Shown here: piece by piece, positions 1 through 60,947 of the stretch
Layout: each line of letters begins with the position of its first letter
How positions within the stretch are numbered: the stretch's first letter is position 1
Assembly (NCBI GenBank): GCA_009746045.1
Contig: RPFO01000296.1
Span: 1,744,388-1,808,387, forward strand
Reading direction: 5' to 3'
Origin: Mesostigma viride
Taxonomy: Eukaryota; Streptophyta; Mesostigmatophyceae; Mesostigmatales; Mesostigmataceae
DNA length: 64,000 nt
Position numbers and translations under genes: made by a program
Notes under the pieces: model-generated
Told to the model about the DNA's origin: nothing
Database searches by the model: none
Seen by the model: only the letters and a program-made list of their open reading frames with translations

Positions 1-11
1 CCACCCCCCAG

Positions 12-253
12 GTACAACACCTGCTGGTCCCCTACTCCTACATGGCCACCAACTGGCCGCTGCAACACGTGGCCGCCAACGACGACAGCACGGACATCGC
101 GGTGGCGGGCCGTAATGGTGTCGCCCTCTACAACCCGCGTAGCAAGAAGTGGCGTGTGTTCGGTGACGTGATGCAGGAGCGAGCCATCCGCTGCGTGGGC
201 CTTATGTGGTTCCACCGCACGGTGGTGCTCTGCAACCACCGGCCGGACAACCG
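12..253 (+). CDS. RIC1: RIC1 exon a (N-terminal beta-propeller)
   Basis: The acceptor is the AG at 10-11 after a C-run and the donor GT is at 254-255 (gtgagt). The frame is set by the RIC1-like NWPLQHVAAND and VALYNPRSKKWRVFG stretch. It ends in phase 2 and joins a C at 1138 to restore Arg. Confidence 0.85.
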
Positions 254-3200
254 GTGAGTAGGACCTACGTTTATTCTTATGCTAGCGTATGTGCCGCATA
301 TGTTTATTCTCATGCTAGCGCATCCATGGTGGCTATTTTGCGCGGTGGTTCTCGCAACCACCTGCAGGCGCAACAGTGCGCGTCGGAGAACCATTGCTGT
401 CCTGGCGCATCCCTAGTATTCCTATCCTAGTATCCCTATCCCTATCCCTAGTATCCCTGTTCTAGTATTCATAGTAGTATCCTAGTATACCTATCCCTGT
501 TCTAGTATTCATAGTAGTATCCTAGTATACCTGTCCTAGTATTCCTATCCTAGTATCCCTATGCTAGTATTCCTGTCCATCCCTAGCATTCCTATCCTAG
601 TATTCCTATCCCTACCCCTAGTATCCCTGTTCTAGTATTCATATCCTTGTATGCCTGTCCTAGTATCCCTATGCTAGTATCCCTATGCTAGTATTCCTGT
701 CCATCCCTAGCATTCCTATCCTAGTATTCCTATCCCTATCTCTAGTATCCCTGTTCTAGTATCCATATCCTAGTATGCCTGTCCTAGTATCCCTATCCTA
801 GTATCCCTATGCTAGTATTCCTGTCCTAGCGCATCCTTAGGATTGAAGTACAATATCGGTCACTGCAGCTACCAGCTGGATAGCCGGTGTGGGGAGGTAT
901 CGCTCTCCTGGCGGCGTTTCTCCCTCCCTGTTTTCTTTTCGAATCGCTGGCTCTTCCTTTTCCCTTGCGTCCTCCCATGGGTTCTAACGAAAGCTTCCCC
1001 CATCCCTTTTTGTGAGAACCTCACCTCCCACCAACCCATTTACTTCAAATTAGATCACATGCCCCCCAACATGCTGACTCCCCCCCTCCCACGGCGCCCT
1101 TCCTCTGCCCCTCCTGCGCTGCCCCCCCCCCTCCCAGCTTCGAGCTGCTCTTCTACCCCCACTACCACCTCGACGAGTCCTCGCTCCTCTACCGCCTCCC
1201 GCTGAAGAAACAGCCGCTCGCCCTCGACGTCTGCGGCCAGTACCTGCTGGTCGCGACCCCCCCTCTCGAGATCCGCGTCTACCACGTGCGCATGGACGGC
1301 GAGCTGTCCCCGCTCGGATCCCCCTCCGTCCACATGACCATGGTCCGGGACCTGTCCATCATGACCGTCCGGAAGCCGCCCGTGTCGATGCGGTTCGTGC
1401 CAAAGGGAACGTTGATCGAAGACGCGTTGCCCGAGCCCTGGTCCGCGAACAACTCCAGTTCGGCAGGCGTGGGTCTCGCCTCAGGGACTGTACCGTCTGC
1501 TCCCGTGACCCCCGACATGAATGGCCCGAGGGGAGTATCCGCGCAGCCACCCGCAGGGGCAGTGACGGGGAACAGCATCTCACAGGGAGGGCGGGGGATT
1601 GGTGTGCCCGTAGGGCCACATTCGGAGGACGAGGGGGTGGCGAGTCACGGGGTGGTGAGGGCCGCCCCCGATGATGCCCAGCTCCAAGGGGGCTCGGAGA
1701 GGCCTGGTCGGGGACGGGGAGACGCGCATGACAATGTGTCGGGTACCAGCATGACATCGGTGGTGGCTGCCAGCAGCGCATCCCCCGTGAAGTGCATGGT
1801 GCTGCGCACGGACGGCGAGCTGTCCCTGTTGGACCTCGAGCAAGGGAGCGAGCGAGCGCTATTGGAGGACGTGGAGCATTTTTGGCTCACGGTTGGGCGG
1901 CCCAAGGCCGACCCCTGGCTCGTGGAGGAGCTTCCTTGGTGGGCATATGGTCATCGGGGCATGCAGCTTTGGTTCCCGACCGTGCGCTCAGAGAACTCCC
2001 ACCATGGGCGGCCGTTTGGGGACCCCTCGGCCAAGCCCCCCGGTGGCACTGTCATGAACGGGGGCGGGGGACAGCTCGACCCAGAGCTCGAGTTTGACCG
2101 TGAGGTCACCCCCCTTGGTATCTCCCCCGCAGTCGGCGTCATCGTGGGGGTCTCCCAGCGCATGTCGTTCGCCCCCTTATGCTCGCAGCTGCCTTGTTTC
2201 GAGCCGATGCCCAGCGCCCAGCCCATCCTCCCCTGTCTACTTCGGCACCTGCTTCAACGCGACGCGCTCGACGAGGCGATTCAAGTGGCCCGTCTATTCT
2301 CGGTACACATGCACTTCTCGCACTCCCTCGAGTGGCTGCTGTTCACAGTCTTGGACGCGGAGGTGGCGCGCGTGGGGGCGCTCCGGAAAGCAGGCTCGCT
2401 CATGGCGCTGCCCAGCCCCGCAAAGGAGGGGGCCACGGGGAAGAAGCCGGGGGGGGGCATTCCCGCGGCACCGTCACCGATGACACCAGGTTTCCACGGG
2501 TACGTGAGCTGGATGGTGAGGGTAGGTGGGTGTGGATGGCAACGTTAGGCGGGTTGGAATTCGAGGGAAGGTGGGTTAGATGGTAAGTGTAGGTGGGTTG
2601 GATGGCAAGCATTGGTGGATTGGATGGCAAGGGTAATCTCTGGCTAAAACCCCTCCATTCTCCTTGCCTGTTAGGGTTTAGGGTAAACTCTCCTTGGCTG
2701 TTAGGTAAACCTTAAACCCTGCCTTTATGCCCCTTTGTGCAACCACCCATTCTCCGCGCCAGGAGCGGCGCGGGCGGCAGCAGCAACTCGCTCCTGTACA
2801 AGGCTTCGGAGCTGATCCGCAACTTCCCGATCTTTGCCGACGTGGTCGTCTCGGTCGCGCGCAAGACCGACGAGCGGCACTGGGCTCTGCTGTTCGAGGC
2901 GGCGGGCAAGCCCACGCTGCTTTTCGACGAGTGTTTCACGGAGGGGCTGTACCGCACCGCCACGTGCTACATCCTGGTGCGTGCTTGCGTGTGTTTGCTA
3001 GCCCCCGCCACGTGCTACGTCCTGGTGCCTGCTTGCGTGTGTTTGTCGGCCCAGCATGGTCGTCTGTGTGTGTGGCCCGCACTAGCAGCAATGACGTATC
3101 CATCCCTGGCTCCTCGACGAGTGCTTGACCAAAGGGCTGTACCGCACCACTACATCCTGGTTTGTGGGCCCTAGCCTGGCATCGGTGTGCGCCCAGTCCT

Positions 3201-6200
3201 CAAGAATGCTAGCGCCATCCTCTGTTGGTTCAGCCCAGCATTCAGCACTGCATGCATGTGCGTTTTTTGCAGCCCTTGTTACTGTGTTCTTGTTCAAAGC
3301 CCTCAACTCATCACTTTGCCCAAGAGCCTGTCGTGCACGCTTGCGTGCCATCAATTCATCTTGGCCTGCATCTCGTTGGCCCCCATCGCGTTTGCTCTCT
3401 GCCTACCCTGCCCCCTCCCTGCCACGGCGCACATGCAGGTCATCGACAAGCTGGAGGGGGCCACGGTCGGGCAGCAGAAGGCATTGTTGCTGCTGCAGGT
3501 GAGGGCCTGTGCGGTGGGGGGGGGGGGGGGAGGGGAGCAGAAGACATTGCTGCGGCTGTTGCTGCGGCTGCAGGTAAGGGCGTGCAAGGCGTGCAGGGCG
3601 TGCAGGGCGTGCAGGGCGTGGCGTGTCTTTCATTCTTGACCTGTGGCATGGTTTTACGTGTCACGTCTCCTTTTCGAAATCATTGGCTGGCAAGCAGCAA
3701 GTGTAGGGGGTTGCGCTTTCCAACCAGCTAGCTGTGGGGTTGTTTATGCGTGCATGTCCCCCACGCTTGCTGTCTACCAGTCCCTGTTGACGAGTCCCTG
3801 TCAGAACTGTTTGTTTCCCTTGCTAGACAACTATAAATGTTCTAGCCAATGCTGCGTCAAGGCTTGCTTGTCTCTGCCCCATGCCACCCTGACCCTTGCG
3901 TCTGTCCGACACCACGCTCACTCCTGCCACGTTTACAGTAATAGAGCTTGTATGACAGAGGCCTTGGGACAGTTACTTGTATACGGGTATAACGGAAAAA
4001 ATTACTTGTATAGGTGCTGAAGCCAAGGTCCATTGGAGTGCCTTCCAACCAGAGAAACAAGTTTATTACAATGAAGTGCGTGCAGTCTTTACAGTTGAGC
4101 CTAGCGACACCCTCAAAATCAGTGCACAAGTCATTTTAAAGTTAGGCCAGTTCACCATGCTGTGGCCCAGCACATGCCCCCTTGGTCCAATCTTGTCCCA
4201 ACAGCAGCGTGGGTGGGTGGGTGGGTGGGTGGGTGGGTGGGTGGGTGGGTGGGCGGGCGGGCGGCGGGCGGCGCGGGCGGGCGGGCGGGCGGGCGGCGGC
4301 GGGCGGGCGGGCGGGCGGGCGGGCGGGCGGCGCGGCGGGCGGGCGGGCGGCGGGCGGGCGGGCGGGCGGGCGGGCGGGCGGGCGGGCGGGCGGGCGGGCG
4401 GGCGGGCAGGGGGTGGGCGGGCGGGGGGTGGGTGGGTGGGGGTGGGTGGGGGGGGGGGGGGTTGGTGGGTGGGTAGGAGCTACAAAAAGGCCTCCCTACG
4501 TTCACCACACCACTCCTAGTCCCTTGTGAAAACGAGTAACAAGGCATATGGTCTCAAGGCGCCGCGCCCCCCTCAAAAGGGCGGGCACAGTTGACAGTAG
4601 GCGCTAGTAGCGGCGCAATGCTGGTCCCCTCTACCCTAATCCTGTGTAACACAAGGACCTCACATGGTGTAGGTGAAGTACAGTAGAGCTACGCTACAGG
4701 CGGCAGATCCGCCCTCTTTGAGCCCACCACAACATAATTATCAAATGAGCATATAGCTCAAAAACTACAGGTATAGCGGAAGGTTTGTAATGGAATTTCG
4801 TTTAGTGATAGGTCATGTAACAGAAGTTTGTCTCACGAAGACAAAAAGTAACGATGTTGCCTCCCCCTTCAATCTCACCCCCCCACTCCCCCTTCCCCCC
4901 CACCCGCTCACCCCTCTCTACCCCCCCAGGCCACCCTGGAGGAGAAGCAGTACGACCTGGCGGGGGAACTGGTTCGTTTCCTGGTGCGGTCGGGGCGCGA
5001 GTACTCCACGGCCGAGGCGGGCGAGGGCAAGCCCAGCCGCACCAACTCGGAGGGGAGCATGTTCAGCTCCTTCTTCCACTTTGGCCTCTCGTCTGGGTAC
5101 GTGGATTTTGACGGTCATGTGTTCCACTTTCGCTGAACACCTTGTGTGAGTTGTGCTGTCTCTCGGTTCGGACCTTTCTTCCCCTTGGGCTTGACATCCA
5201 CACTGTGCATTTGTCCGTTGGGCTTCACTTCTCTTATAAAACTTTTGCCCGACATCGGGGTAGGTGCAGCTCCTTTCACTCCCCCCGTTTTCAACCTCCC
5301 AGCGGCATGCCCACGAACTGATGCCAAGGCCAACAGCAACCGTGCTGATTGGCCCATGCACGTTGTCCTTCCCTCCCCATTTCCCTCCTTTTCCCCTCCC
5401 CCCCATGAACCTCCTCCCCCAGTGGCCCGCCCTAGAACTGCCAATGCCAACTGTAACCCTGCTGAACAGTCCAAGCTAGTTGTTCTCTCCGCCCCCCCCT
5501 TTCCCCCCCCCCCGGCTTGGCCTTCCCTTCCATTTTCCCTCCCCCCCAGCGGCGCGCCCAAGAACCCCGCGCAGCGCCTCCACCGGACGGTGAAACACAC
5601 GCTCAACAACCACGCGCTGTCGCTGCTGCGGGACTACGACCTGCTGTCGCTGGTCGCGTTTGCAAAGGGGACGCACTTCAACCTGACGGTGAGGCGTTGG
5701 CTGTGGCTCGCAGTTCGTGGTCTGGATGGGATCCGCATGCACAAACGGATTCTGGTTGCAAAGGGGACGCACTTCAACCTGACGGTGAGGGGGTGGCGGC
5801 AATTTAGGCATGGGCTCATGAATCTGGACCTCATGAACCCGGCGGTTAGCGACAAAGGACCTAGTGTCGGTAGGACCTATCGTCGCTGACCGTGTTTGCC
5901 AAAAGGGGCTGTGGTGTTGCGAGGCAACCATTCCTTGAATGAGGCACGCTCCTGTGTCTGGTCGTATTCATATTGTGTGCAGTATATATAATAATGCATA
6001 TAGATCAGTGATGCGGATATATACTATAATAAGCAGTATATATGCGCATAGATCAGTGATGCGGAGACTGTTATGTGTAGTATCTGTACAACTAGTAGTA
6101 TACATATATGTATCCAACCGCTCACGGAGCGTGCTTTACTTGAGAGATGGTTGCTCCAATTTATCATTATCATTCAGTGTATAAATATATTCTTAGAGTT

Positions 6201-9200
6201 TATTGGGCCCATGTCAACCTGATCTTGAGTGGTGGCAGCTCGAAGGGAACGTCTGGCGCCCGGAAGGGAAAGCTGCACGTATGACGTACGTCACCCCTTG
6301 ATGTCTTGCAACTGCCATTCAGGAAGGCAGACGGCACCCTTAACCCTAGACTCTAAGCACAAGGCACCTTTTTTGCTGCAGAACCATCACCTGTGCGATG
6401 CTGGCCTAGCGGATAGATGCTGGCCCAGCTGAATGCTAACCGACACGGAAAATGGCATGCTTGCTGTGATGGTGGTATGGTTGCCGCTCCTTGATATCCC
6501 AATGACCCGACATGCCAGGATTTTTTCTCGAGCCAAAAGGCAAACTCGTCGCCACCGGACTTCACCAGCGCGCTCACCGCGGTGTACGAAAGTGTAAGTG
6601 TGGTCACCGGGAGTTGCCTTGCTCCTTGTTTTTTTCCACACAAGGTTGCATGAAGATTATTACCAGAAAAAAATAGATGAGTTGTCGCCTTGGGCGCACT
6701 CCACTGCAACCACCTGGCCAGCGTTCCTGTTTACCCTTCACCAATCACAGGGGCATCATTTCACTAATCACTGGAGTAGTAGATTACCATTCATCCTTCA
6801 GCAATTATCATCTGGGCTAATTGTCGGAGCAGCGGGTGACGGAAGGTCGAATGCTAGTTAATGGTGCATAAGCAATTATTGGAGCAGCAGGTGACGGAGG
6901 GTCATATGCTAGTTAACGGTGCATCACGGTAAGCAGGTGTGTGACGATGCGTTGCTAGTTAATGGGTGCATTACAAAGATATGTAAGACAATATGTAAGA
7001 CGTGTGTGTGTAAGAAGGATAGGTGGGGCCTAGCAGAATTTTTTTAGAGGAGCTACGCAGACCCATGGGATGAGCCATGGGATGAGGATCCCGAGGCCCC
7101 ATCGCCGGTTCATAGGGGATGGTGACCTCTCCTACGGTGATCGAGCATGGGTGAGCTCACCATCCAATGGTCATTTGACCATCCAATGGTCATTTGACCA
7201 TCCAATGGTCCCCATTCGATGGCGGTACAGCACGTATTGGGACCTGGGGATGGCAAAGGTTCGTGGCGTTGGGTGAGCTCAACGCAGATGTACGAGCATC
7301 GATCTGCCTGACGGCTATACTGCCATTGCGTACTCACATGTGCTGGTTTGTCCCACTTGTAACCACGGTGGCCTGTCTGCTGTGTATTTGCTGCCTGTTT
7401 CCGGATGAAGGGCTGCAGGCTGCAACCGCCCACACGTGCCCCACAACCATCCTCACGCATTTGGATGGATCGGCATCATGCCAACATCTAACTGCCACCA
7501 ACAGTTAGGGTTCTCTCGCGTTCTGCGCGCCAAAATAAACCTGCACCCGTTGACTTGCATCTCCTCTTGTACTCGGTTCTCCACCGCCCGTGCGCCCACC
7601 GTGCATCTTATTTACTTATTTTGTTTATTTATTTGTCTTAATTTGGTCCCCCCAGATCAACCTGCAGCTGCTCCAGGCACGCCTGGACCTGGAGTTCCTG
7701 CTGGCCCACGTCAACGCGTCGGGGTGCACGGAGTGGACGCTGGTGCTCGCCACGCTGCTGCAGCGCCGCGCGGTGGGTGGGCGTTGAGGTTGCTTGCTGC
7801 TGCCACGATCACGTCCCACAATACGTGCTAGACACTGTCGCCGCAGCTGCTGAAGCGCGCCGCGGTGGGTCGGCATTAAGGCGTGGCATTCAGATCGCTG
7901 TCTGCCTTATCACCATCATCAATTTGTGTATGGAAAGGGGCACATGGCTGCAGTGCCTGCGGTGGGTGGTGGTTACAGCTAGCTGCTGTAATTGCCACAG
8001 TCAGTATAGTCTCGGCAATAGTTTCACAGCGCATCGCTGCAGCGCTGCACAGTGCGTGGTGTTCTTTTCATTTTTGTCTCTTGTTGTTGCTGCTGCTGCT
8101 GCTGCGCTGAGCGGTCAGTGGCGGTATTTGCTGCTGGCTTCTGCCACGATCATGTCCTACCATAGGTGCTAGACACTATCATGTCCTCTATAGCTACTCG
8201 TACGATCATCTGCTATGCTGAATCGGAATTCACTCTTCCAGCCCCGCGTACGGTAGTGTTTGGCCTTTTTGTTTGCGGCTGTCATATAGTGCCACAGTGC
8301 ACTGCTGCAGTTCTGGGCAGTGCATGTCATGTCCTGGCGTGGGGCGCCGCTTCAGCACTTTCACAATCCAACCCCCATGCAGCCTTGCGAAGCTGTAGTT
8401 GTGCATGACAACGTTGTGAGTGAAGTCCTCATGCGTTCTCGGCGGCAGCGCCGGGCAGCACGCCGGCATTACTGGTTGCTGCTGCCACCCGATCATCTGT
8501 CTAGATTGAAGTGTTCATCACAGAAGCATTATGGATGTTGGAACGCATGGCTGCAATCGAGCGACTCTGTATTGTATACTGTTGCGCACGTGGTATCCTT
8601 CGACACTATTGCAATAGCCGTACGATATGTAATGCATGCATGCTGGGGCTCTGACTGCTCTTATATCACACTGTTTTTTCGCTCCTAAATCACACTAATG
8701 ATTACCAAGCCTGTGGGCTCTAGTTGCCGCTTCAGTTCCGATAGCTTGTTCATGTGTGTCAATATGTTTCTACCAAGGATGGAGTGTTGCTGTGAGTGCC
8801 AATATGGATGCAAATCGTGGCTATCTCAGGTACAAAGCTTTGTGAAACACTTGACCTCCTGGCATGGTCGCAGCAGGGGGAGTGACGCCTTATTTCCAAG
8901 CACTGTGTTTCGAGTGCCTGCTGCCTTGCTCAGTTCAACTTTTGCCGCCACGGTGCCATTATTGTTCGTGGTGCCTGTCGTCATTCCTAGCTGCGGCTGC
9001 ACCTGCTTTTCGCTCTGTCGACACACTTGCCCTATGACATGGCTGCGTGGCTCACGCAAGCAACCGTATTCTCATGCTTGGTCCTCTATATACCTTCCTC
9101 TGCGTAAACCTTCTGCTGCTGTCCTCGTTATACCTTCTGTTTATACTTTATGCTGTTTCTGTATACCTTCTGGTGTTCTCCATATACCTTGTGCTCTCCT

Positions 9201-10718
9201 CTACTCTTCCCAATTCCCATCCACCCCCTCTCCGGCAAACAGCTGCTGCGGGATCTGTTCAAGGGAGCGCCCGCGCTGTGGGCTGGTTATCAGAAAACAG
9301 TGCAGGTGTGTCCTTGGAGCATGCAAAGGAGGTTGTTGATGTTTCGCCCATGCTGAGGATGTTGTTGTTTCACCATTCTGCTGAGGACGTCATCGTTGTA
9401 TCATCGTGCCTTCCCACAAGTCGGGTAAAGCAACCTATGACTCGGTTAACACCACCTTGGGACGTAGGCTTTGCCATGTCTTGATAGGAGATAGGGGTCT
9501 GTGACGTATTTGCCTATAGCACGTGGAGGACGCGAGTCCATTGGGCAGGGTGCCATTTTATGTTTGGAAACATACATCATGAGGCTGACTAGTATTCGCT
9601 TTGAAAGTCTACTTGGCTGGATGAAGAGACCTTGTTAGATAGAAGGGTTTGTTGCCATTCTTTCCCATTCAGAAAAGGTACGGTACGTCTGATGCCTGCG
9701 TCGTGCCAGCTGTCAGCACTGTGGTCAGGTCCGCGCGGACTTGTGTGACTGTGCATGGGCGTTTGCTTGGCCCTTGAACTTAAAGAGCGGGAGCCCCCAA
9801 CGAATCGGGTTGCCTTGTGAAGCCGTAGAGGCCCTTTGCTCAAAGGGACAAGGGTGTGCCCTCGGGAGGACTGGGTTGAAGGGTGGGCCTTTCCGAGGCG
9901 TGGTGGTTTCCCTGGTCGGTGCCCCTCATTTTTGCTTGTAGGCGTGTCGCTTCATCCCTCTCCCCAGGGGATCAACCTGGGTGTGCGAGTACTGAGCACG
10001 GTTGGCCACCCGGCCAGTGTGGCAGGCCAAATGCTGCTCCAAGGCACACAGGGACGTGCTTGGTCCGTGCGACGGACGAGATTGAGACTCCCATGCGCCA
10101 GCCTCCATAGCCGTGGATTACCTTGCCTGTGTATGTATGTCACGTGATGTGTCATCCAAAACGTGTGCCGTAATGACGTGATGTGATCATTGAGGCGATC
10201 CCCTTGCATCCTCTCCCTTCTTTTCCTATTGCCCATGTCCTTTCGTTCTCATTAGGGCGATCCCCTTGCATCCTCTCCTTCTTTCCTAATGCCCATGTCC
10301 TTTCGTTCTTATTTGGGCGATCCCCTTGCATCCTCTCCTTCTTTTCTACTGCCCCTGTCCTGTCGTTCTTGTCGTGCCTTTCTTACTTAGTTATCCCTAT
10401 CCTTCCTTGAAACTCCGCCAGTGTCAGGCCTGTCTATTCAGGCCCTTGTCATGTGGCTCACGGTCTATCTATTCATCCATTCAGTCCACCACGTGCCTCC
10501 GCCAGGAGAGTCGCGTGGGTTTGAATTTTGCTTTCCCTGACGACTTGAAGTTGTCACCGATGTCATAACCCAACGCCTCTCACTGGTGCCACCCTTAACT
10601 TGCGTCCCTGCCACCACGGCCACACACTGCTCCCTGCCAGGCCGCTCCCTGCGGCGTGCTCTTCAAGGGCCTTCTTGAAGACGTGAGCGAAACAATCGCG
10701 CCCGGCGACAGCACGTGA
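12..10718 (+). CDS. RIC1: RIC1 homologue (Rab6 GEF complex partner), 3' part, nine exons
   Basis: Spliced CDS, 5' end outside the window. Exons: 12-253, 1138-2499, 2763-2976, 3439-3498, 4930-5096, 5550-5688, 7656-7772, 9243-9305 and probably 10641-10718. All borders are AG/GT and phases agree; the in-window CDS is 2442 nt, 813 codons plus stop. The first exon matches the RIC1 N-terminal beta-propeller (motifs NWPLQ, VAVAGRNG, KKWRVFGD). Later exons match the RIC1 domain: RHLLQRDALDEA, then NFPIFADVVVSVARKTDERHW, then the helical C-terminus. In known systems RIC1 pairs with RGP1 to activate Rab6/Ypt6 at the Golgi; that role here is inferred from family. A large low-complexity Gly/Ser/Pro insert (about 1430-1790) separates propeller segments. 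The neighbour downstream on the same strand is importin-11, with no functional link evident. Family assignment is firm; the last exon is less so. Confidence 0.88.
254..1137 (+). other. RIC1 intron with a CCTAGTAT-type degenerate minisatellite
   Basis: This intron opens with an echo of the exon end at about 338-368 (ggtggttctcgcaaccacc against ggtggtgctctgcaaccacc in the exon). Positions 404-835 are a degenerate array of short units such as cctagtattcctat and ccctatccctag. Nothing coding is seen. The acceptor follows a C-rich tract ending at 1137. Confidence 0.7.
1138..2499 (+). CDS. RIC1: RIC1 exon b, large propeller-to-RIC1-domain exon
   Basis: 454 codons. It starts FELLFYPHYHLDESSLLY, continuing directly from the first exon in alignment with animal RIC1, then ALDVCGQYLLVATPPLEIRV. 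A low-complexity Gly/Ser/Pro-rich insert follows. It ends with the conserved RIC1-domain start: LPCLLRHLLQRDALDEAIQV and HFSHSLEWLLFTVLDAEVAR. The donor gtacgt lies at 2500. The 3' part is again low complexity (SPAKEGATGKKPGGG). Phase 2 at both ends. Confidence 0.85.
2763..2976 (+). CDS. RIC1: RIC1 exon c
   Basis: Encodes LLYKASELIRNFPIFADVV and ARKTDERHWALLFEAAGKP, matching the RIC1-domain segment around the human [20 protein letters not shown]. The acceptor is the AG at 2761-2762 and the donor gtgcgt is at 2977. Phase 2 in, phase 0 out. Confidence 0.88.
3006..3160 (+). repeat. Two echoes of the RIC1 exon c 3' end plus donor
   Basis: The exon end plus donor (cacgtgctacatcctg|gtgc) recurs at 3006-3052 with the following intron sequence. 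A longer echo at 3114-3160 repeats about 45 bp of exon sequence (gacgagtg..ctgtaccgcacc..tacatcctgg). Both keep the GT after the exon-like end, so they are potential decoy donors. Confidence 0.85.
3439..3498 (+). CDS. RIC1: RIC1 exon d (20 codons)
   Basis: A 60-nt exon, phase 0 at both ends, encoding VIDKLEGATVGQQKALLLLQ. It bridges the TATCYIL end of the previous exon to ATLEEKQYDL of the next, as in animal RIC1. The donor is gtgagg. Confidence 0.85.
3499..4929 (+). other. RIC1 intron with an exon echo and a GGGT/GGGC array
   Basis: 3535-3580 echoes exon d plus donor (gagcagaagacattgctg then gctgcaggtaagg), followed by a gcagggcgt repeat at 3586-3620. 4209-4470 is a GGGT then GGGC array, strongly G-rich on this strand and likely to form G-quadruplexes. 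No coding sequence is seen elsewhere. The open frames through the array (for example poly-GGWVGG) are repeat artefacts. Confidence 0.75.
4209..4470. repeat. (GGGT)n/(GGGC)n microsatellite
   Basis: About 260 bp of tetranucleotide units, GGGT at the left end and GGGC with interruptions (GGC, GGCG) over most of the rest, then GGGT again. All G runs lie on the plus (coding) strand of the RIC1 intron. Confidence 0.95.
4930..5096 (+). CDS. RIC1: RIC1 exon e
   Basis: Encodes ATLEEKQYDLAGELVRFLVR and SGREYS, matching the human [20 protein letters not shown] region. It ends in a Ser-rich segment (SMFSSFFHFGLSSG). The acceptor follows seven Cs; the donor is gtacgt. It leaves in phase 2. Confidence 0.87.
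5297..5455 (+). repeat. Two echoes of the RIC1 exon f acceptor and exon start
   Basis: At 5297 (cctcccagcggcatgcccac) and 5419 (cccccagtggcccgccctag) the polypyrimidine tract, AG and first exon bases of the true acceptor (5548-5570, ccccagcggcgcgcccaaga) are repeated. The two echoes also match each other further downstream (gccaatgccaac / gccaaggccaac). Spacing between successive sites is about 120-130 bp. Confidence 0.8.
5550..5688 (+). CDS. RIC1: RIC1 exon f
   Basis: Encodes GAPKNPAQRLHRTVKHTLNN then HALSLLRDYDLLSLVAFAK, the helical region corresponding to human [21 protein letters not shown]. The acceptor follows a C-run; the donor gtgagg is at 5689. Phase 2 in, 0 out. Confidence 0.85.
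5689..7655 (+). other. RIC1 intron (about 2 kb)
   Basis: 5757-5790 is a near-identical copy (about 34 bp) of the exon f end plus donor; a weaker copy lies at 5877-5910. 6000-6070 carries a short direct repeat (gatcagtgatgcgga). 6820-6970 has three degenerate copies of a unit with gctagttaa..ggtgca. 7150-7205 repeats a catccaatggtcatttgac unit. Nothing coding is seen. Confidence 0.7.
7656..7772 (+). CDS. RIC1: RIC1 exon g
   Basis: 39 codons, phase 0: INLQLLQARLDLEFLLAHVN then TEWTLVLATLLQRRA. It matches human VQLRYLLHIFMEAGCLDWCIVI. The acceptor is ccccccag; the donor is gtgggt. An echo of the end (cagctgctgaag..gcggtgggt) lies at about 7845-7875. Confidence 0.85.
7773..9242 (+). other. RIC1 intron (about 1.5 kb)
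   Basis: Contains the exon g echo at 7845-7875, a diverged direct repeat pair (7790-7840 and 8130-8180, ctgccacgatca..tgtcc..gtgctagacact) and a short GCT run at 8087-8106. 9085-9190 repeats tatacctt units before the acceptor. No gene seen. Confidence 0.6.
9243..9305 (+). CDS. RIC1: RIC1 exon h
   Basis: 21 codons, phase 0: LLRDLFKGAPALWAGYQKTV(Q). It resembles the human C-terminal LLQNIKTGLHAVDRWAS segment. The donor gtgtgt is at 9306. Reading through would stop at 9354-9356, an alternative end of the protein. Confidence 0.75.
9306..10640 (+). other. Last RIC1 intron with a 3-copy repeat
   Basis: No coding signal is seen. 10190-10375 has three copies of a ~63-bp unit (gggcgatccccttgcatcct, then ctccttctt and cccatgtccttt) with small changes. 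Confidence 0.6.
10641..10718 (+). CDS. RIC1: RIC1 probable terminal exon
   Basis: After the acceptor ccctgccag the frame (phase 0, as required by exon h) reads AAPCGVLFKGLLEDVSETIA then PGDST and stops at 10716-10718. The GVLFKGLLEDVSE stretch fits the end of RIC1 (human KPFLNIIKPQLQKLSE). The exon is short and has only modest similarity, so another terminal exon or the read-through stop at 9356 remains possible. Confidence 0.5.
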   Translation, partial: AAPCGVLFKGLLEDVSETIAPGDST

Positions 10719-12890
10719 TGACGTGACGCAGGTGAGCATGATGTGGCTGCATGATGTGGGGTGGTGGCTGCATATTGTGGGCGGTGGTGGGTGCATGATG
10801 TGGTGTGACAGGGGCAGGCGGGTAACTAAGTCACACGGTGGGTTTATATCGCCTTGCTGATGACAAGTGCGGTAGGCAATGAAGCGATCACCGCCGGTGG
10901 CAGCAGCGAGCTGCTAGAATTTATTAGCAGGTGATGGTTTAATTAGAAGCATCAACGTGGTGGGTCGCGGATGCCAGTGATTGCAGCATGTGTTGGGGCG
11001 ATGGGTGCATCGATTCATTAGTTAGTCACGCGGTCCCATTGGGGAGCCGTGCATTAACCCTTGTTGAAAGGTGCATGTTGTGGGGTGAGCAGCCCCGGTG
11101 GTGATAGCCTCTATACAACTAGTAGCTACTGTAGCTACTGTACTGGTTAGAGATTCGTAGTAAACAATAGCGGTGGCATTGATAGCGACTGATTGCAGTA
11201 CTGATTGCTGTACCTCTGGTGATGCGGAAGCTTAGCGACGTCTACAAGGGATAAGTTAACGTCACGGGGACCTAGCGATGTCTACAAATGACAAATGTCA
11301 TGGGGATGTTCATGCCCTTGTTCGTGCCTCGCGTCTACTTGACCAGCTGCCGGGGGAGGCAGACATTTCTCTTGGAGGGTAAGGTTTGGGGGAGAGGGGG
11401 CTGTCGCAAGCATTTTGGGTGGCAGTAGGCCATGAAGATAAAAGTGCATGCAGAGTTGTTCCGTACGCCCTGGTAAGATTATTCGTGCGTGCTGAGTTGT
11501 TCCGTACGCCCTGGTAAGATTATTCGTGCGTGCTGAGTTGTTCCGTACGCCCTGGTAAGATTATTCATGCGTGCTGAGTTGTTCCGTACGCCCTGGGGAT
11601 GCCTCGGCTGCCCTCAGCCTTTGGCATTCTTATCTCACCGGCATCATCGCAGGTTGCGCTGTTCCCGGCATGATCGCGACGGCCCGGCCGACCAACCATA
11701 CAACGGCAGGCACAAAGTAGGTATAAGAGGAGCCGACCAACCATACAACGGCCAGCTCGAGCTACCATGGTCCGGACTCTCCAGATGTCTGGCCTGCGCT
11801 GGCTGTCTCATGGATACGGCGGTCACTATGCTACAGTGTGCTGGCCTGCGCTGGCTGTCTCATGGATACGGCGGTCACTATACTACAGTGTTCAGTCTTG
11901 CGCTGGTTGTCTCCTGGATACAACAGCCGGCACGAAGTGCGACACCAACTAGTACGGAAACCAACCGTAGGCCTCCAGCGAGGAAGAGGCCTTGCCCGTT
12001 GGTCCACTCATGCTCTGGGGCAGGAAGAGGCATGCTGCAGCTGCGAGGGGCCTGCGGCCCACCAGGGTGCCCATGCATGCCCACGCGATATCCCTGGGGC
12101 GCCCTCGGGGTTACCCTCGTGGAGTGTAGCTCTGCCGTGGACAGTATCTGGGGAGACTGCGTGGCGCACGCCAGCAATAAAGGGGCTCGCATACAAAAAG
12201 GGGCCGTGCCATCTGGTGCTTCAGTTATGCCCATCACTATGCGGGCCGTACCGGTGGTGGGCTATTGGGGACTGCTGGTGCCCGTACCAGTTGTGGTCGC
12301 ATGGGCTATTGGGTAATGCTTGTGCCCCATACAGGTGGTGGCCGCATGGGTAATGCTGGTGCTTGTTTTCTTGACCGTTTGCTGCCGCTGTTGCCGGCGC
12401 CGCGGTTCATGGAATCCACCTGCGCAGAGCGAGTGTGGCATGACACCGCCATCGCAAACGGTTCGGGTGTCGCGGCTCACTTTTGCACATGCGGTCGGTT
12501 GAGCAGGGATGCCACCGCGGCTTGCATATCAACGAGACAACCAGCGCAGGCCAGAAATCTGGAGCATATGCTCTCCTTAGCCCTTGTTGTTAAGATGATG
12601 TCCGTGACGAGCCCACCCGGAAGGTGACCATCCGATGGATGGGATGGTGGTGACCTGAAGAAAGTTGGTGAGAGTTTTTGCACGGAAACTTTATGATGTG
12701 GCAAAGGTTTTTGCACGGAAACTTTATGATGTGGCAAAGGTTTTTGCACGGAAACTTTATGATGTGGCAAAGTGACCCCAACCCGGGGGGGCACCCTCGC
12801 GAAGCGTTGCACCAGTTTGGTGTTTGACCAACCAGCGGCAGGCCTGCAGGCACTGATAGGCTATTCAATAAAACCGAATAATGTCCTTTT
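10719..12890. other. Intergenic region with tandem and dispersed repeats
   Basis: No convincing gene. 11451-11596: three to four copies of a ~52-bp unit (gagttgttccgtacgccctg). 11690-11765: two copies around gaccaaccatacaacggc. 11783-11920: two full copies and one partial copy of a ~57-bp unit (ctggcctgcgctggctgtct). A related dispersed copy is inverted at about 12510-12570, and another lies at 52560-52640. 12674-12772: three identical 33-bp units. An open frame at 11567-12316 runs through these repeats and is not supported. Confidence 0.6.
12674..12772. repeat. Three identical 33-bp tandem units
   Basis: Units begin at 12674, 12707 and 12740 (gtttttgcacggaaacttta..). The copies are identical, so the expansion is recent. 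Confidence 0.95.
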
Positions 12891-12904
12891 CCCTAGTAGT
12901 ACTA

Positions 12905-14050
12905 TAAGGCTTTGACTGCGTCATGTGGGTACCTTCAACCCTTTTACAAACAAAAACGAGAAAAGGGAGGGCGCGCTAGTTTCTCTCGTACTGCCTCAAG
13001 TGGGCAGGCCACAGAGTCCTAGTGGAAGGGGCTATAAACGCACTTGAGGGGGCCCACTTGTCTTCCTTGGTTGACCAACCTGCTAGCATGGCTGGTAAAG
13101 GCGGACAATTATCTGGATGTAAATTATGCCAGCATTATTATGCCGGGTTGGAGATTAGTGTCAAAACCGAGGCGACGGTGATTGGGGCCTCCAGTAAACC
13201 ACCGCTGCCGCGCCTGCTCGACGGGACGGAGGTCCCGTTCCGCGACCGCTTCAAGCTGTTGGGGAGCTGGCTTCCTGACACTGCCGACGATGTGGACACC
13301 CGCATCGGCCTTGCCTGGACCAAGCTCCGTTCGCTCACACCCTACTGGCGCTCGAAGGGCCTGGGCGAGCACCGCAAGCGCATGCTCTTCAAGGTCCTCG
13401 TCCTCACGGTGCTCACGTATGGCGCCGAGGCGTGGACCATCCCACCCAAACTGGCAGCTAGGCTAGACGGCACGGTTTACAGGATGCTCCGACAGGTCCT
13501 TAACGTAGGTTTTTCCGAGCATCCGTCATCAGAGTCTTTGTATCATGGCATGCCTCGTGTTTCGGACGAGATTAGGCAGTGTAGGATAGCATTTGTAGGA
13601 CACCTTGCCCGCACCAGCCAGGTCGACACCACCCTTGGTCTGGCCGGCCCCCAGCGGCTTGGCCAGCCAGGGCAGCACATTCTGACCTGGCCTGGCCCCG
13701 AGGGCATTCCCAAAAGGGTAGGGAAACCTGTCACGAACTACGTTCAGATGTTGCTGGACGACCTAGTGGTCCCAGCCCAGTTTGAGCACCGCATCCACTC
13801 TCTCTCCCGTCTTTGGACTGCCGTGCAGGACAAGACGCGGTGGAAGAAGATTGTCAAGGCGCACACGCCCGACCCTGTGGGCAAGCCACCTCCCCCCAAG
13901 CGGAGGAGGCGTTTTGATGAGTAGTGCAGTTAGGATTTTCTAGATAGAGTTAGGATAGTTCGATCACGCGGCTTCCTCCACCCCATCCATCATGAAATAT
14001 GTGCTACATGACCTCCCCACGGAGGCATGTTATAATTTAATTTAATTTTT
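12905..14050 (+). mobile_element. RTE-like LINE copy: 5' leader joined to ORF2 C-terminus
   Basis: 12905-13030 matches 43556-43680 (gactgcgtca..gtgggtgcc, then gggcaggccacagag), probably a LINE 5' leader. It is joined directly to the end of ORF2. The 3' UTR ends in hairpin catgacctcc-ccac-ggaggcatg and an AATTTAATTT tail (to about 14050). The whole EN and most of the RT are missing, so the copy is an internal-deletion derivative. Confidence 0.75.
13022..13924 (+). pseudogene. RTE-like LINE ORF2 C-terminal fragment
   Basis: Open for 300 codons, but only about 13148 onward is ORF2-like: ISVKTEATVIG, FKLLGSWLPDTADDVDTRIG, LFKVLVLTVLTYGAEAWTIP, RLDGTVYRMLRQVLN, then MPRVSDEIRQCRIAFVGHLA. This is the thumb/C-terminal region shared by RTE-clade reverse transcriptases (LGSW.., LF+..V..VLLYGSE.WT, LDG..TRMLR, R...GH..R). 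It lacks the catalytic YADD. The C-terminus is basic (PPPKRRRRFDE). Confidence 0.85.
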
Positions 14051-14054
14051 TTTT

Positions 14055-14335
14055 AATCCACTCTCTCTCCCGTCGATCTTTGGACTGCCATGCAGGACAA
14101 GACGCGGTGGAAGAAGATTGTCAAGGCGCACATGCCCGACCCTGTGGGCAAGCCACCTCCCCCCAAGCGGAGGAGGCGTTTTGATGAGTAGTGTAGTTAG
14201 GATTTTCTAGATAGCTTAGAGTTAGGATAGTTCGATCACGCGGCTTCCTCCCATCCATCATGGAATATGTGCTACATGACCTCCCCACGGAGGCATGTTA
14301 TAATTTAATTTAATTTAATTTATTTATTATGCCCT
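14055..14335 (+). mobile_element. Second, 5'-truncated RTE-like LINE 3' end
   Basis: Starts at about 14058 within ORF2 (cactctctctcccgtc) and repeats the last ORF2 codons, 3' UTR, hairpin and AATTTAATTT tail of the preceding copy, with a few differences. It lies directly after the first copy's tail, so either two insertions occurred in tandem or template switching happened. Confidence 0.85.
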
Positions 14336-14425
14336 TCCGCGCATTGTAGTTACTACGTGCAGCATTTCCCATTGTTTGGAAATCTGCCATCTTTAGTTTG
14401 AGTATATATACTGATCAGAATATAC

Positions 14426-14808
14426 GCTTGGCTGATTTCGATAGTACCGGCTACGCCCCCTTCTACTAAAAAGAAGGATTCAGCCGTGTTCAGCCCGTCT
14501 CACGGTGCGAGACTGAACAAGTCTCGCGTGCAGACACGTGTGTAGTACTCCTACACACAGATCTCGAGTGATTTATCTAGTACCAAATCCGAAAGGCTTG
14601 CATCACTCCCCGGACAGGAGAACTTTTGCGGATGACTGTAGGTGTAAGTTGGCGATGCCATGGTATCCGGAGACGTCCGTCCTATAGTCAGCAAAATTGG
14701 TGCGAGAGGTCCCCAGTTCGATTCCGGTCGGATTCATTTGCAGATCGCGTTTTCCGCGTTTTCCGCGGCCTGGCACTGAACGCAAAGGTTTTCACCTTTG
14801 CGGAGTGT
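14426..14808 (+). mobile_element. SINE-like insertion with tRNA-related segment and hairpins
   Basis: A 383-bp insert bounded by a perfect 15-bp target duplication (CTGATCAGAATATAC, 14411-14425 and 14809-14823). It holds a tRNA-like block ending with a B-box-like agttcgattcc (about 14718) and a 5-bp acceptor match (atccg near 14670 / cggat near 14730). Perfect hairpins are tcgcgagact-like cgagact/agtctcg, gtgtgtag/ctacacac and a 3'-terminal cgcaaaggt/acctttgcg. No ORF. It is probably a retroposon; the A-box is poor. Confidence 0.7.
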
Positions 14809-15245
14809 CTGATCAGAATATACTGGAAAGTATTAGCCACTCTGCAGTTTCACAAAAATGCGTCAAGGCCTGGCAAAAAGTATCACTCTGACAATCCGGA
14901 AAAAACTTTGAGGTGGGGGGAGGCGGGGCAGGCCGCCGGATCTGGCATTACCGGGGCCATGCCGGGGCTCATTCATTCATTCTGTAGGCATCTTCACATC
15001 AACTCGAGGGTGCTCCGCAAGCCGTTTTGTCAGCCTGGGTAATTTACGGAGGCGGTTTACCTCCGTCACTGACCTCGTTGGATCACGGGTGGGTCAGCGC
15101 AGGGCTAGCCGGCCGCCGAGTCACTACAATCGTTGTCCTCAGCATCAAGCCGTAAGGTGCATTCTTAGTACTAGTTGATAGTGGAAAATAACATTCCGCA
15201 GGCCACATCCCGTTTGCTTGCGAAGAAGCGCAAATTATCTGGATG

Positions 15246-15405
15246 AATGGACGGACAGACGGACGGACGGACGGACGGACGGACGGACGGACGGACGGAC
15301 GGACGGACGGACGGACGGACGGACGGACGGACGGACGGACGGACGGACGGACGGACGGACGGACGGACGGACGGACGGACGGACGGACGGACGGACGGAC
15401 GGACG
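15246..15405. repeat. (GGAC)n microsatellite
   Basis: About 40 perfect copies of the tetranucleotide ACGG, inside the L1-like fragment. It gives open frames in all registers (TDGR/RPSV repeats), which are artefacts. Confidence 0.95.
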
Positions 15406-15707
15406 GGGTTTGGCAATGGTTACTGGGTATCGGGGCAATGAAAGTGGATTGGTCAATTACTTCACCACCGTACCCCCGCCCTGTCACCGTCGGTCTCTAC
15501 GGTCGTCTTCGGTATCGATGTGACACGGGAAGCGAGCCGCACGGCCAACCGGATCAGATGGCCTGGGTATGGCTTCGTACGACGATGCTCCACACCATTT
15601 GGCGAGCCGTACGCAACGAGACCGTCTTCAAATTACGTTCCGAGTACACTATAATAGAGGGGGCGTTGGTGGTCCGCCGGTTTATATCCTCATGGGTATC
15701 TGGCCAT

Positions 15708-15869
15708 TAAAATTAAAATTAAATTAAATTAAATTATAACATGCCTCCGTTGGGGGATCATGTAGCACATATTCCTTGCTGGATGGGTGGGGTGGAAGGA
15801 GCCGCGTAATCGAACTAACCTAACTCTAATCTAGCTAGTCTAGAAAAGTCCTAACTACCCTACTCATCT
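15708..15869 (-). mobile_element. 5'-truncated RTE-like 3' end, minus strand (1 of 2)
   Basis: On the minus strand this is the RTE-like 3' UTR, hairpin and AATTTAATTT tail. It is flanked by the target duplication TATCTGGCCAT (15697-15707 and 15870-15880). Confidence 0.88.
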
Positions 15870-15880
15870 TATCTGGCCAT

Positions 15881-16036
15881 TAAAATTAAATTAAATTAAA
15901 TTATAACATGCCTCCGTGGGGAGGTCATGTAGCACATATTTCATTATGGATGGGGTGGAGGAAGCCGCGTGATCGAACTATCCTAACTCTATCTAGAAAA
16001 TCCTAACTACACTACTCATCAAAACGCCTCCTCCGC
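15881..16036 (-). mobile_element. 5'-truncated RTE-like 3' end, minus strand (2 of 2)
   Basis: A second short copy inserted in the same orientation at the same target. TATCTGGCCAT is present a third time at 16037-16047. The L1-like frame resumes at 16048. Confidence 0.88.
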
Positions 16037-16199
16037 TATCTGGCCATGCGTCGGTCATATCATCGGCATTGCCGCTCCTCATGACGACGGAATTTGGAGC
16101 ATCCAGCGCTTCACACGCCCCTTGGAGGCCCTCCTGTCGTACTATCTACAGCTGCTCTGATGTTTCAACTCTTGGATACTTGGCTTTGAAGTAAGCCTA

Positions 16200-16466
16200 G
16201 GCCGGCTGCGGGGTCCCGTTGGTCGGTTACTGTAGTGCGTAGTAGGACTACTGCTTATGTAGGGGTGTAGTAATTAGTGATGCTTTTAGATAGAAGTTGT
16301 AGGTAGCTGATGTAGATAGATTAGACCGGTAGGACTGTTTGCATCCATCCATCCATCCATCCATCCATCCTCCGTGACTCCCCAACGGGAGCACGAGTCT
16401 AATTAATTAATTAATTAATTAATTAATTAATTAATTAATTAATTAATTAATTAATTAATTAATTAT
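16200..16466 (+). mobile_element. RTE-like 3' UTR with stem-loop and ATTA tail
   Basis: Matches 58535-58703 (gaccggtaggactgtttgca, CATC repeats). It ends in the stem-loop ctccgtgactccccaacggg-agcac and 16 TTAA units (16401-16465). The 5' limit is approximate. Confidence 0.75.
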
Positions 16467-17135
16467 GTGGGGGTCAAGTCCTTTTCTCACCTGTTTGCCA
16501 CCGGCCCGCGTAAAAGGTCGGACCAGCCTATGGAACCCTGTCGGTATACCGGCGCGCGAATAAACTCAACTCCGTCAACTCAACTCAACTCAACTCGTGA
16601 CGACAGAACTGAACTACACACTGAAAGCCGTGGGACCTCGGCTGCAAGGCCCTCCAGCATTAGCCGGTGACTATGTCCCAAGCCCGCCCATCGGACGGCC
16701 GGGAAACAGTTTCATGAACTCATGGGGATGCCAATAAGGTCTTGCCGGACGATGATACATCTTCCGTCGGTACAATGCCTGGCCCTACCGGCCGTCGGTA
16801 GGCCGGGGGGTGACCATGATGGTGGCCGGGTCGCCGGGCGCAAGGTGGGCGAAGCGATGACCTTATCATTAATGCGGGCAACCCTTGGAAATTAGGTCTA
16901 ACTAGGCTTTTGGCTTTTCTGGCATCCCTCGGTGGAAATAAATAACACCCATTTCCCCGGGAAATTGTTGAGGTCCCCGCACTTGCATGTAGTCGGCACT
17001 CAGCACGCCGCAGTGCTGAGTTGAGTTGACAGCGCGGAGAGCCGACAGAGTTGAGTCAGTTGACACATATGACTCGAACAGTTTTCTTCCCAAAACTTCG
17101 GTGAAGTTGCGAGGCCGGTGGTATCAATTCCTGAT
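16467..17135. other. Probable retroelement remnant, unassigned
   Basis: Moderately GC-rich sequence with CAACT repeats (16566-16597) and their complement near 17020-17055 (gagttgagttgac). No frame with recognisable homology. It may belong to the element whose (AAC)n tail lies at 17192-17213. Low certainty. Confidence 0.35.
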
Positions 17136-17146
17136 ACTAAATCTAT

Positions 17147-17213
17147 CCGGCCCTCGGCCACTATAGATCTCTGCTGCCCTTGGGCGGCGTGGGAAACAAC
17201 AACAACAACAACA
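17147..17213 (+). mobile_element. 67-bp retroposed 3' end with (AAC)n tail
   Basis: Flanked by an exact 11-bp duplication ACTAAATCTAT (17136-17146 and 17214-17224). It ends in AAC repeats, so it looks like an extremely 5'-truncated retrotransposon insertion. Confidence 0.75.
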
Positions 17214-17224
17214 ACTAAATCTAT

Positions 17225-17525
17225 GTGGCGGTTACCTCATGGCCGGCAATAGCTAACTCGCTAGCTGCTGACATGCTCGCTCCGACGACTTCCGTCAGTC
17301 AGGAGTTGGAAGCCTTCACTATCGTTATGCCTTCGGCAGTTAACGGGGTTTTAGTCAACATGCCAGCACCATCGCCAAAAACCCGGCCACTACCGCTCTG
17401 CTATCACACCTTTGTGTGCTGGTAGCCACCATTTTGTAACAGTAAGCCCACGATGCGAGCTAGCAAAGTTTGCTGATATATTTGCAGTTAGTGTGTTTAT
17501 ATATCGCCAGGTCGGCATTGCACAA
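17225..17525 (+). other. Upstream region of the importin-11 gene
   Basis: About 300 bp before the chosen ATG; the promoter and 5' UTR should lie here or further upstream. No clear TATA element is seen. The frame stays open back to an ATG at 17412, but the importin N-terminus aligns best from 17526. Confidence 0.4.
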
Positions 17526-35994
<18,469 letters not shown>

Positions 35995-36463
35995 ATGGGC
36001 ATGGGCTGGTTACAGACCAAGAGGCTTCAACGGGCACGGGCTGGTAACAGACCAAGAGGCTTGACTTGGCACGGTCAGGCACATGTCATTAGGCTAGACG
36101 GGGCTAGCTTCCTACCCTTTAATTTGAACATGTCGAGGGCCCACGTAACGCTGCTACGTGTTAAGTAATTAATGAACTAATTTATTAGTTAATTAATTAA
36201 TATTGAGGGCTGGTTCGGGTACTGGTAATCAGGCGGCAATAAATAATTACTTGAGCCGTGTGTCGAATAGGCCGTTTACTTACATTAACCCGTGTTTTTT
36301 TAATTAGAACGCGATATATCGCGTTGTAAGATTTTTTTAGAACGCGTATAGCACCTAAGGAAAATTTTTTTTCATGGTCATGTATATACTTTCCTGAAAG
36401 CCCATAAATCAAAGGATTTTTTGAGCTACTCAGACCTACAAAATGCTTATTCATTAGAGAGAT

Positions 36464-38425: not shown

Positions 38426-39033
38426 ACACTGGTTTGAATACAGGGGGGTCTGACCATGACCGCGATTTCTTGACCCTAGGTCACAAGTCATGTGCTTATT
38501 CACAAATGGTTCATGAAAAAAATCTGGCTTCTTGCACGAGCTATGGGCAACATATGCAGGCTCTGTGAAACAAAACTCAGGCCCATTGGGCCACTGGAGC
38601 TATTTTTCATTAGCATCACAATTACAACGCAGTACAACGCAGTGGGAAACATGAGAGCCCTTGACAACATTACGCAACGACCCGAGCCCCATAAACGGGG
38701 CCATAGTGAGCTTGGAGGGTCAAAACGTTGAACATAGGCGTTGTATAAGTTATACAGCATCAAACATGCATCAAACATCATGACTGGATGACTGAATCAG
38801 GCAGCCATAGCCAAAGCATCATCCACTCTCACAACGTGTTGAGCACATGCCTCGTGGGAATGGAGGTGCTGGGTTTTCATTCCATAACGCGTGCAATACT
38901 GAAAGAAAGAGGCACGTGTAATGCAAGGCTTGGATAGGTTGAGTGATCCATGAGCTTACATGCAGGCAAAGATGACGCTGGAATGCATGCTAGCAAATGG
39001 TGGCAAGATGCCAACAACACATGATTATACACC
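38426..39033. other. Unassigned sequence inside the TTAA-bounded element
   Basis: No gene or repeat recognised. The 5' limit of the following ORF1 element may lie here. Confidence 0.4.
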
Positions 39034-48122: not shown

Positions 48123-48541
48123 GCACCCCCGCTGCCATGGAGATTACTCCACGTTGGTCCATGCAATTATTTAAGCCAGCATGGCCATGCTTTCTTAACG
48201 GCAGCGCATGCAGCCCTTGTTCTCACTATACTATTGCTAGTAACTTGTGAGTTATAACTTAATGTCCCATCCATCACATGGGTCCATGCAACCATCGGCC
48301 ATCACCCACTGCCATCACATACTACACCGGCTCAAGATGGTATAAGTATTAAGACAAAAGACTCCTTCATAGATCATGCTAAGCATGACCCTTTAGTTCT
48401 TGTCTGGCGGCTGCAGCGGCAAGAACCGCGGCTTCTTTGCCCGGGCTGTGCAGGCAGCGCGAACCTTGCGCCGCAGGCGCAGGTCCTCCTCCTCCGCCTC
48501 CTCCTCCCCCACCTCCTCCTCCAACCGGGAGGAGCCAGGCC

Positions 48542-53015: not shown

Positions 53016-53019
53016 CCCT

Positions 53020-54318: not shown

Positions 54319-54379
54319 AACAGTCACCGCGGCGCAGGCTTCGGAAACGCATGCTGCACTTGTCTCTCGCCTTAACCAG

Positions 54380-56753: not shown

Positions 56754-56819
56754 AAGTGAGGGATTTAGGGTTGCGGGAAAGCGGGAGGGTTGCTGTCAAC
56801 TGCCACTTCCAACGTCCCT

Positions 56820-60941: not shown

Positions 60942-60947
60942 ATTGGG

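Follow-up and report, generated by a model that had tools for sequence, protein, structure and literature searches.

Why should the introns of two neighbouring genes carry, again and again, short copies of the end of the preceding exon together with its 5′ splice site? The question is raised by 64,000 nt of Mesostigma viride DNA (contig RPFO01000296.1, positions 1,744,388 to 1,808,387 of the forward strand; hereafter the window), which hold the 3′ part of RIC1 and the importin-11 gene. A sequence-only reading of the window had proposed that introns are built from copies (echoes) of their own exon borders, and grow by repeated tandem duplication starting there. The analysis presented herein demonstrates that donor echoes are approximately three times commoner than acceptor echoes and that the pattern generalises beyond the window; it probably reflects local tandem duplication of a generic kind, in which copies that overlap an exon stay recognisable through their conserved source and duplicated acceptors are purged.

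Donors were represented by probes joining the final 40 nt of the exon to 10 nt of the intron and aligned locally (match 1, mismatch −1.5), with a score of at least 14 counted as an echo; within the window, segments of equal length from all other window introns served as control (23 introns, 22 others each). Thirteen of 23 donors reached this score in their own intron, as against one of 506 comparisons with foreign window introns, and 16 outscored all 22 other introns (18/23 on a first-pass exon map). These thirteen are exactly the donor-side cases that the sequence-only reading had listed, and adjacent exons thus perform clearly better than others, the comparison on which it had staked its claim. 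Its assertion that copies come from the adjacent exon only is likewise borne out, as donor probes matched introns of other loci in only 1/1914 comparisons. When a tenth RIC1 exon was included (24 introns) and simple repeats were masked, 13/24 donors retained an echo. The weakest case is RIC1 donor 3498, which lies in CTG-rich sequence; a further weak point is that some echoes are units of arrays such as that at importin-11 donor 30149, where the 57-nt unit is mostly intronic and includes only about 22 exon nt.

The exon maps underlying these counts rest on annotated protein models rather than on transcripts. For the foreign-intron control the RIC1 map was corrected except at 6519, whilst the 24-intron counts and the positional profiles employ the fully corrected map. 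Counts of flanking homology, GT/AG retention, repeat coverage and matches to other loci, most echo scores in the table and the training of the gene finders use the first-pass map with its 23 window introns, in which RIC1 boundaries were set at 2515 for 2499, 2762 for 2763, 6540/6591 for 6519/6593 and 9242/9306 for 9243/9305.

With regard to acceptors, 6/23 in the window reached 14 and 9/23 outscored all others, with foreign introns reaching 14 in 1/506 comparisons; masking of simple repeats likewise gave 6/23. Five of the six acceptor cases proposed previously (5550, 27210, 31491, 34223 and 35111) attain the threshold, whereas that at 33008 falls short of it with 13.0, and an echo of the acceptor at 35809 was absent from the earlier list. 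A tandem array lying over the importin-11 stop codon, with a stop-edge score of 15.5, shows that a splice site is not required for such copies. Among predicted terminal-exon edges outside the window, none of the two usable stop edges had an echo, and there were no usable start edges.

Copies are direct, with inverted matches found for 0/64 donors and 0/60 acceptors. The nearest donor copy lies 38–248 nt away (median about 90; 37 cases) and the nearest acceptor copy 51–151 nt away, with one at 542 (15 cases), such that 14/37 donors but only 1/15 acceptors have a copy within 80 nt. Of 24 introns with a donor copy considered for homology to the right of the probe, five were too short or masked; in 10 of the remaining 19, or about half, homology continues past +10 (p < 0.05, uncorrected). 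Together with the direct orientation, this lends support to tandem duplication as their origin. The exon part of the copies differs from its source by approximately 10% for donors and 16% for acceptors. It had also been stated that copies usually keep the GT or AG, and this was so for 44/52 junction-aligned donor copies and 10/16 acceptor copies, counted over 64 introns from all sets. Within these copies, ordinary dinucleotides of the exon part survive at closely similar rates (80% and 68%, respectively), so GT and AG are retained about as under neutral drift. On a donor matrix 41/52 donor copies score at least 2, and 19/52 at least equal the true donor: the decoys are strong, yet not visibly held by selection.

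Whereas the window was chosen for its echoes, other genes from the same assembly (GCA_009746045.1; 439.9 Mb in 2243 contigs) were taken blind to them. An exact set comprises 41 introns of kinesin, CCT and two helicase genes, their exon joins fixed by profile positions and retained where the profile join lay within 3 residues and no site was weak (25/37 for kinesin, 16/21 for CCT and helicase). Once probes had been set aside because they contained masked simple repeats or their targets were short, there remained 40 usable donors and 37 usable acceptors, of which 12 and 4, respectively, had an echo, with no inverted echo for any of the 40 donors. A second set consists of 20 helicase loci of 10 kb, with introns taken from a purpose-written gene finder; here echoes occurred at 22/105 donors and 5/101 acceptors, compared with 9/1050 and 1/1010 in control loci, probes matching at least two controls having been dropped. 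For predicted introns only, the corresponding values are 18/81 and 5/77, and interior probes gave 91/1103 and 84/1088. Pooling of the two sets yields 30/119 donors and 9/112 acceptors (Fisher p = 0.0007), with the two helicase loci common to both (L021 and L027) counted once here and twice in the pooled positional profile described below.

The gene finder employed for these loci recovered 17/25 mapped exon starts and 17/25 ends of the window amongst 34 predicted exons, in a test for which six RIC1 truth boundaries were those of the first pass, and the site matrices, albeit not at that time the coding model, were window-trained. It placed two RIC1 donors exactly on echoes (3024 and 5784). A previous version based on codon bias alone had been discarded for its weak boundaries, as just 4/8 of the window donors that it kept were correct.

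Local duplication is in no way confined to exon borders. Local direct repeats, source and copy included, account for some 22–23% of intron bases, and interior intron probes found a local copy in 93/689 cases downstream and 102/666 upstream, compared with 0/1220 in an unrelated intron. Exons are the source of only 3.0% of intron sequence (4.2% for the window, 2.2% for other loci), and the notion that introns are built from their own exon borders hence does not hold. In the helicase loci, local copies are at least as frequent outside predicted introns (303/2109) as within them (274/2964), and the idea that introns are richer in such copies than intergenic DNA was consequently dropped. Within the window, 2.5% of probes in the intergenic stretch, which by eye is largely transposon sequence, have local copies, versus 15.8% in introns, and mapped exons rarely hold them (1.6% of 387 probes).

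When downstream copies are profiled by position, the unselected genes display a peak at the donor (0.30 at −5 in the exact set, 0.22 pooled), with background values from +25 onwards of 0.07–0.11 and 0.04–0.09, respectively, and no peak for acceptors (0.07–0.08). The stretch from +25 to +90 shows no excess (45/630, versus 31/483 at +120 to +300). A neutral simulation, in which exons were frozen and tandem duplications could arise at any place, with decay and deletions, produces a ratio of edge to interior of 1.3–1.5 (six settings, 400 runs each), alike at donor and acceptor, because the source is preserved in the exon whilst an interior duplication drifts on both sides; an earlier version (five settings of 160 runs) had given 1.04–1.55, with the peak centred on the junction. 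In the exact set the observed ratios are approximately 2.0 (donors) and 0.7 (acceptors), and in the helicase introns 2.7 and 0.8; donors therefore exceed the neutral expectation, and acceptors fall below it. Transposon sequence in unmasked introns probably lowers the interior rate, and if it does, donors would come nearer to the model and the acceptor deficit would be larger.

We propose that the introns of Mesostigma, and their surroundings, undergo frequent local tandem duplication followed by decay. Duplication of a unit lying over a 5′ splice site would place the end of the exon and the start of the intron twice in succession; with the first donor still in use the protein would be unchanged, and the second copy would drift as intron and be read as an echo. 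Such echoes would look border-centred because their exonic source is conserved, whereas intron-only duplicates drift apart. Duplication over a 3′ splice site would, conversely, supply an extra acceptor upstream, which would likely be used first and break the frame, such that the allele is mostly lost; this would account for the threefold preponderance of donor echoes, and agrees with the rarity of acceptor copies within 80 nt. Use of the first donor is seen in annotated proteins, in that RIC1 P0041 splices at 2976 and 5688 despite in-frame echo donors at offsets of 48 and 96, as far as which the reading frame is open, and the first donor is presumably preferred in the cell as well. Replication slippage or break repair may be the mutational mechanism.

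Several observations weigh against this account. The donor rate surpasses the simulated 1.3–1.5 both in the exact set (12/40 versus 63/428 in the interior, p = 0.02) and in the helicase introns, leaving an excess over simulation of about 1.4–2, and the contrast between donors and acceptors is borderline in the exact set alone (p = 0.05). The discarded codon-bias finder, with its poor boundaries, revealed no asymmetry in the helicase loci (12/86 donors, 11/86 acceptors; 12/142 and 6/150 for intron probes). Nine of the 19 testable nearest donor copies lack significant flanking homology, most clearly the perfect 35-nt echo of 5688, and neither the RIC1 stop edge nor the importin-11 start edge, when probed, had an echo. 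Predicted helicase exons hold local copies almost as often as introns do (100/1218; exon middles 3/52 and 5/54), which means either that these exons are false or that the process extends into coding DNA. In the window, the stretch from +25 to +75 past the donor is itself enriched (0.17–0.22, compared with 0.09–0.12 in the deep interior; 0.13–0.22 over +25 to +90), a result that favours the sequence-only reading. Finally, we infer the purging of acceptor copies from counts alone. The proposal that duplication starts at exon borders is accordingly weakened by the interior copies, but draws some support, on the donor side, from this near-donor stretch and from the donor excess.

A donor-anchored process would accommodate much of the above. 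An event linked to the donor, such as stalling of a polymerase or an R-loop there with subsequent slippage or repair from a template, would copy about −30 to +10 and paste it downstream; donor sites would then be hot spots, and introns would accrue arrays of full-strength decoy donors that are ignored by position alone. The sharp peak at exact unselected donors and its absence at acceptors, the rate above simulation, the raised +25 to +75 stretch of the window and the 5688 echo (−29 to +6) are all in keeping with this; the neutral simulation, however, yields a lower peak of the same shape, the unselected genes have no excess adjacent to the donor, and tandem homology continues beyond about half of the testable copies. 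Both the anchoring itself and its corollary of donor hot spots are, in our estimation, unlikely but deserving of serious attention. The richer near-donor stretch in the window and the copies in predicted exons add to the weight of this reading and take slightly from that of generic duplication.

The remaining explanations carry far less weight. It is improbable that decoy donors are selected, for instance because they tune splicing or intron retention, since GT retention is near that of neutral exon dinucleotides and the two isoforms adjoining echo-bearing donors, one with intron 15 retained and one with exon 11 skipped, are too few, even if they and the scores of the copies on the donor matrix would suit such a role. 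That the introns are recent gains, through tandem duplication of exonic AGGT segments (the Rogers model) or introner-like elements, is very improbable: tandem duplication is indeed involved, and many sites read AG|GT, but the Rogers model places donor and acceptor in two copies of one exonic segment and so needs copies at intron 3′ ends, where the listed donor copies lie inside introns instead, and introners would be similar introns dispersed among many genes, where the copies here are intron-specific. The echoes might also be artefacts of misassembled long reads, the published assembly being PacBio-based and repeat-rich (PMC6947507); false duplication would not, however, produce exon parts that diverge from their source to the extent noted above, and the pattern recurs across independent genes on many contigs, rendering this extremely improbable.

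Amongst known systems, there is a close likeness to intronic minisatellites and tandem repeats, which similarly consist of direct head-to-tail units of tens of nt, sometimes in several copies, that decay; as with these, the copies described here are direct and are not confined to splice junctions, as the interior probes and stop-codon array demonstrate. They differ in that the Mesostigma units cross exon–intron junctions, and that many are low in copy number and diverged, with Tandem Repeats Finder (TRF) reporting only some of them. Templated insertion during polymerase-theta end joining leaves local copies in both orientations, and no inverted copies were found at the 64 donors. A paper of 2007 is said to have described human introns derived from tandem arrays.

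That genes undergo tandem duplication, and can gain introns by it, is already known, as set out in PMC3443670 and PMC4974935, which cite Rogers 1989, Gao and Lynch 2009 and Hellsten 2011 on the subject. In the cases of Hellsten 2011 and potato RdRp (PMC4974935), local intragenic tandem duplication also yields extra splice sites, but there a new intron arises from a duplicated exon (or exon plus intron), whereas here an existing intron acquires unused copies of its own donor. The dual-specific splice sites of polyubiquitin genes resemble the present case in that repeat units bear splice sites and splicing tolerates expansion; there, however, the repeats lie in coding sequence and a single element acts as both 5′ and 3′ site (PMC10809524), as opposed to intronic copies of a single donor. 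Direct repeats near splice sites are likewise the subject of PMC11782384, in which the 5′ is paired with the 3′ intron border (4–30 bp), whilst in Mesostigma a border is paired with places internal to the intron. Among the matches listed in a search of open-licence literature (titles and abstract openings), none describes introns that bear arrays of copies of their own donor, or an imbalance between donors and acceptors among copies of this kind.

About a quarter of the sampled unselected Mesostigma donors thus have a recognisable decoy nearby, which constitutes a natural library for the choice of the spliceosome among near-identical donors, more than a third of the scored decoys (19/52) matching or beating the real site on a simple matrix. 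Should the donor/acceptor imbalance hold across the genome, it would gauge by how much the harm of duplicating an acceptor exceeds that of duplicating a donor. With about a fifth of sampled intron sequence in local direct repeats, local duplication is moreover a plausible contributor to the long introns of this species, for which the genome paper gives a mean length of 1142 bp, with 30.1% of intron space repetitive (PMC6947507).

Table. Genes, exons, echoes and associated tandem arrays in the window (positions are those of the window; offsets are in nt from the true site)
Feature	Position	Strand	Remarks
RIC1 gene, 3′ part	3..10718	+	annotated protein P0041; single stop closes frame
RIC1 exons	3-253, 1138-2499, 2763-2976, 3439-3498, 4930-5096, 5550-5688, 6519-6593, 7656-7772, 9243-9305, 10641-10718	+	
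Importin-11 gene	17526..35994	+	16 exons; open spliced frame and annotated proteins P0001/P0002
Importin-11 exons 1-8	17526-17684, 18633-18745, 21268-21340, 22014-22075, 23003-23147, 23713-23970, 24934-25000, 26075-26684	+	
Importin-11 exons 9-16	27210-27888, 28417-28647, 29832-30149, 31491-31748, 33008-33117, 34223-34279, 35111-35192, 35809-35994	+	
Echo of RIC1 donor 253	340..368	+	score 16.0; best foreign intron 11.0
Echo of RIC1 donor 2976	3005..3034	+	score 25.0; offset 48
Second echo of RIC1 donor 2976	~3127-3161	+	offset 183
Echo of RIC1 donor 3498	3532..3558	+	score 17.0; best foreign 15.0; CTG-rich
Echo of RIC1 donor 5688	5756..5790	+	35 identical nt, -29 to +6; no significant flank homology
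Nearest of four echoes of RIC1 donor 7772	7838..7874	+	offsets 92, 189, 279, 341
Echo of importin-11 donor 21340	21379..21400	+	more copies at offsets 159, 331
52-nt tandem array at importin-11 donor 21340	21327-21442	+	TRF
Echo of importin-11 donor 22075	22108..22130	+	score 15.5
Echo of importin-11 donor 25000	25066..25113	+	score 28.0; right-flank homology p = 0.029; more at offsets 209, 384
Echo of importin-11 donor 26684	26855..26890	+	score 26.0; GT changed to GG
Echo of importin-11 donor 27888	27927..27961	+	score 27.5
57-nt tandem array, 5.7 copies, first unit over importin-11 donor 30149	30128..30441	+	TRF; offsets 57, 114, 171, 223
77-nt tandem array, 4 copies, diverged echoes of donor 30149	30579..30889	+	TRF; at least 2 copies found, offsets 455, 610
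Nearest of four echoes of importin-11 donor 31748	31817..31860	+	offsets 102, 267, 387, 560
Echo of importin-11 donor 35192	35260..35282	+	score 18.0; flank homology
Echo of RIC1 acceptor 5550	5416..5438	+	AG kept; second ~247 nt upstream of acceptor
Echo of importin-11 acceptor 27210	27089..27107	+	score 16.5
Echo of importin-11 acceptor 31491	31375..31406	+	score 14.5
Echo of importin-11 acceptor 33008	32908..32925	+	score 13.0; AG lost
Echo of importin-11 acceptor 34223	34142..34155	+	score 14.0; AG lost
Echo of importin-11 acceptor 35111	35013..35044	+	score 19.5; AG lost at aligned place
Echo of importin-11 acceptor 35809	35648..35692	+	score 14.0
35-nt tandem array, 2.7 copies, over importin-11 stop codon	35982..36074	+	TRF

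The spliced importin-11 product is 1135 aa, its frame open across all 16 exons, and it is collinear with EukProt jgi/Mesvir1 protein P0001 at 100% identity over residues 1–1075, and with P0002 except for one skipped exon. The 5′ part of RIC1 lies outside the window; its map fits P0041 from the same EukProt set, including the acceptor at 6519. Isoform P0001 reads on into intron 15 (stretch 35193–35400), and its tail translates an exon-15 echo, reading QRREL and then QRRERL, whilst P0002 omits exon 11 (29832–30149), whose donor has the largest array of echoes. Both the retention and the skip adjoin echo-bearing donors, these being two cases.

Importin-11 intron 2 (18746–21267) contains approximately 1.8 kb of six-base arrays (GTGACC, AATCGG, TAGTAT and variants), and other long arrays in the window occupy 4211–4440, 15249–15406, 22428–22754 and 28779–29097. 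L1-like retrotransposon fragments with AT-rich tails were recognised by eye only, at 13100–14300 (between RIC1 and importin-11), 39000–40300 and 53000–61800, and on the minus strand at 48400–50800 an extended stretch that resembles coding sequence and includes a (TCC)n run may, also by eye, be a transposase-like gene. Elsewhere in the assembly, a CCT gene was found twice with the same match scores (C887:345845-347056 and C1641:63548-67934), one intron differing by about 3.2 kb, and the two copies are perhaps alleles with an insertion. Contig C2011, of more than 1.3 Mb, holds five helicase matches and an almost complete Cpn60 domain that runs through a single open frame, which suggests a bacterial contig within the assembly.

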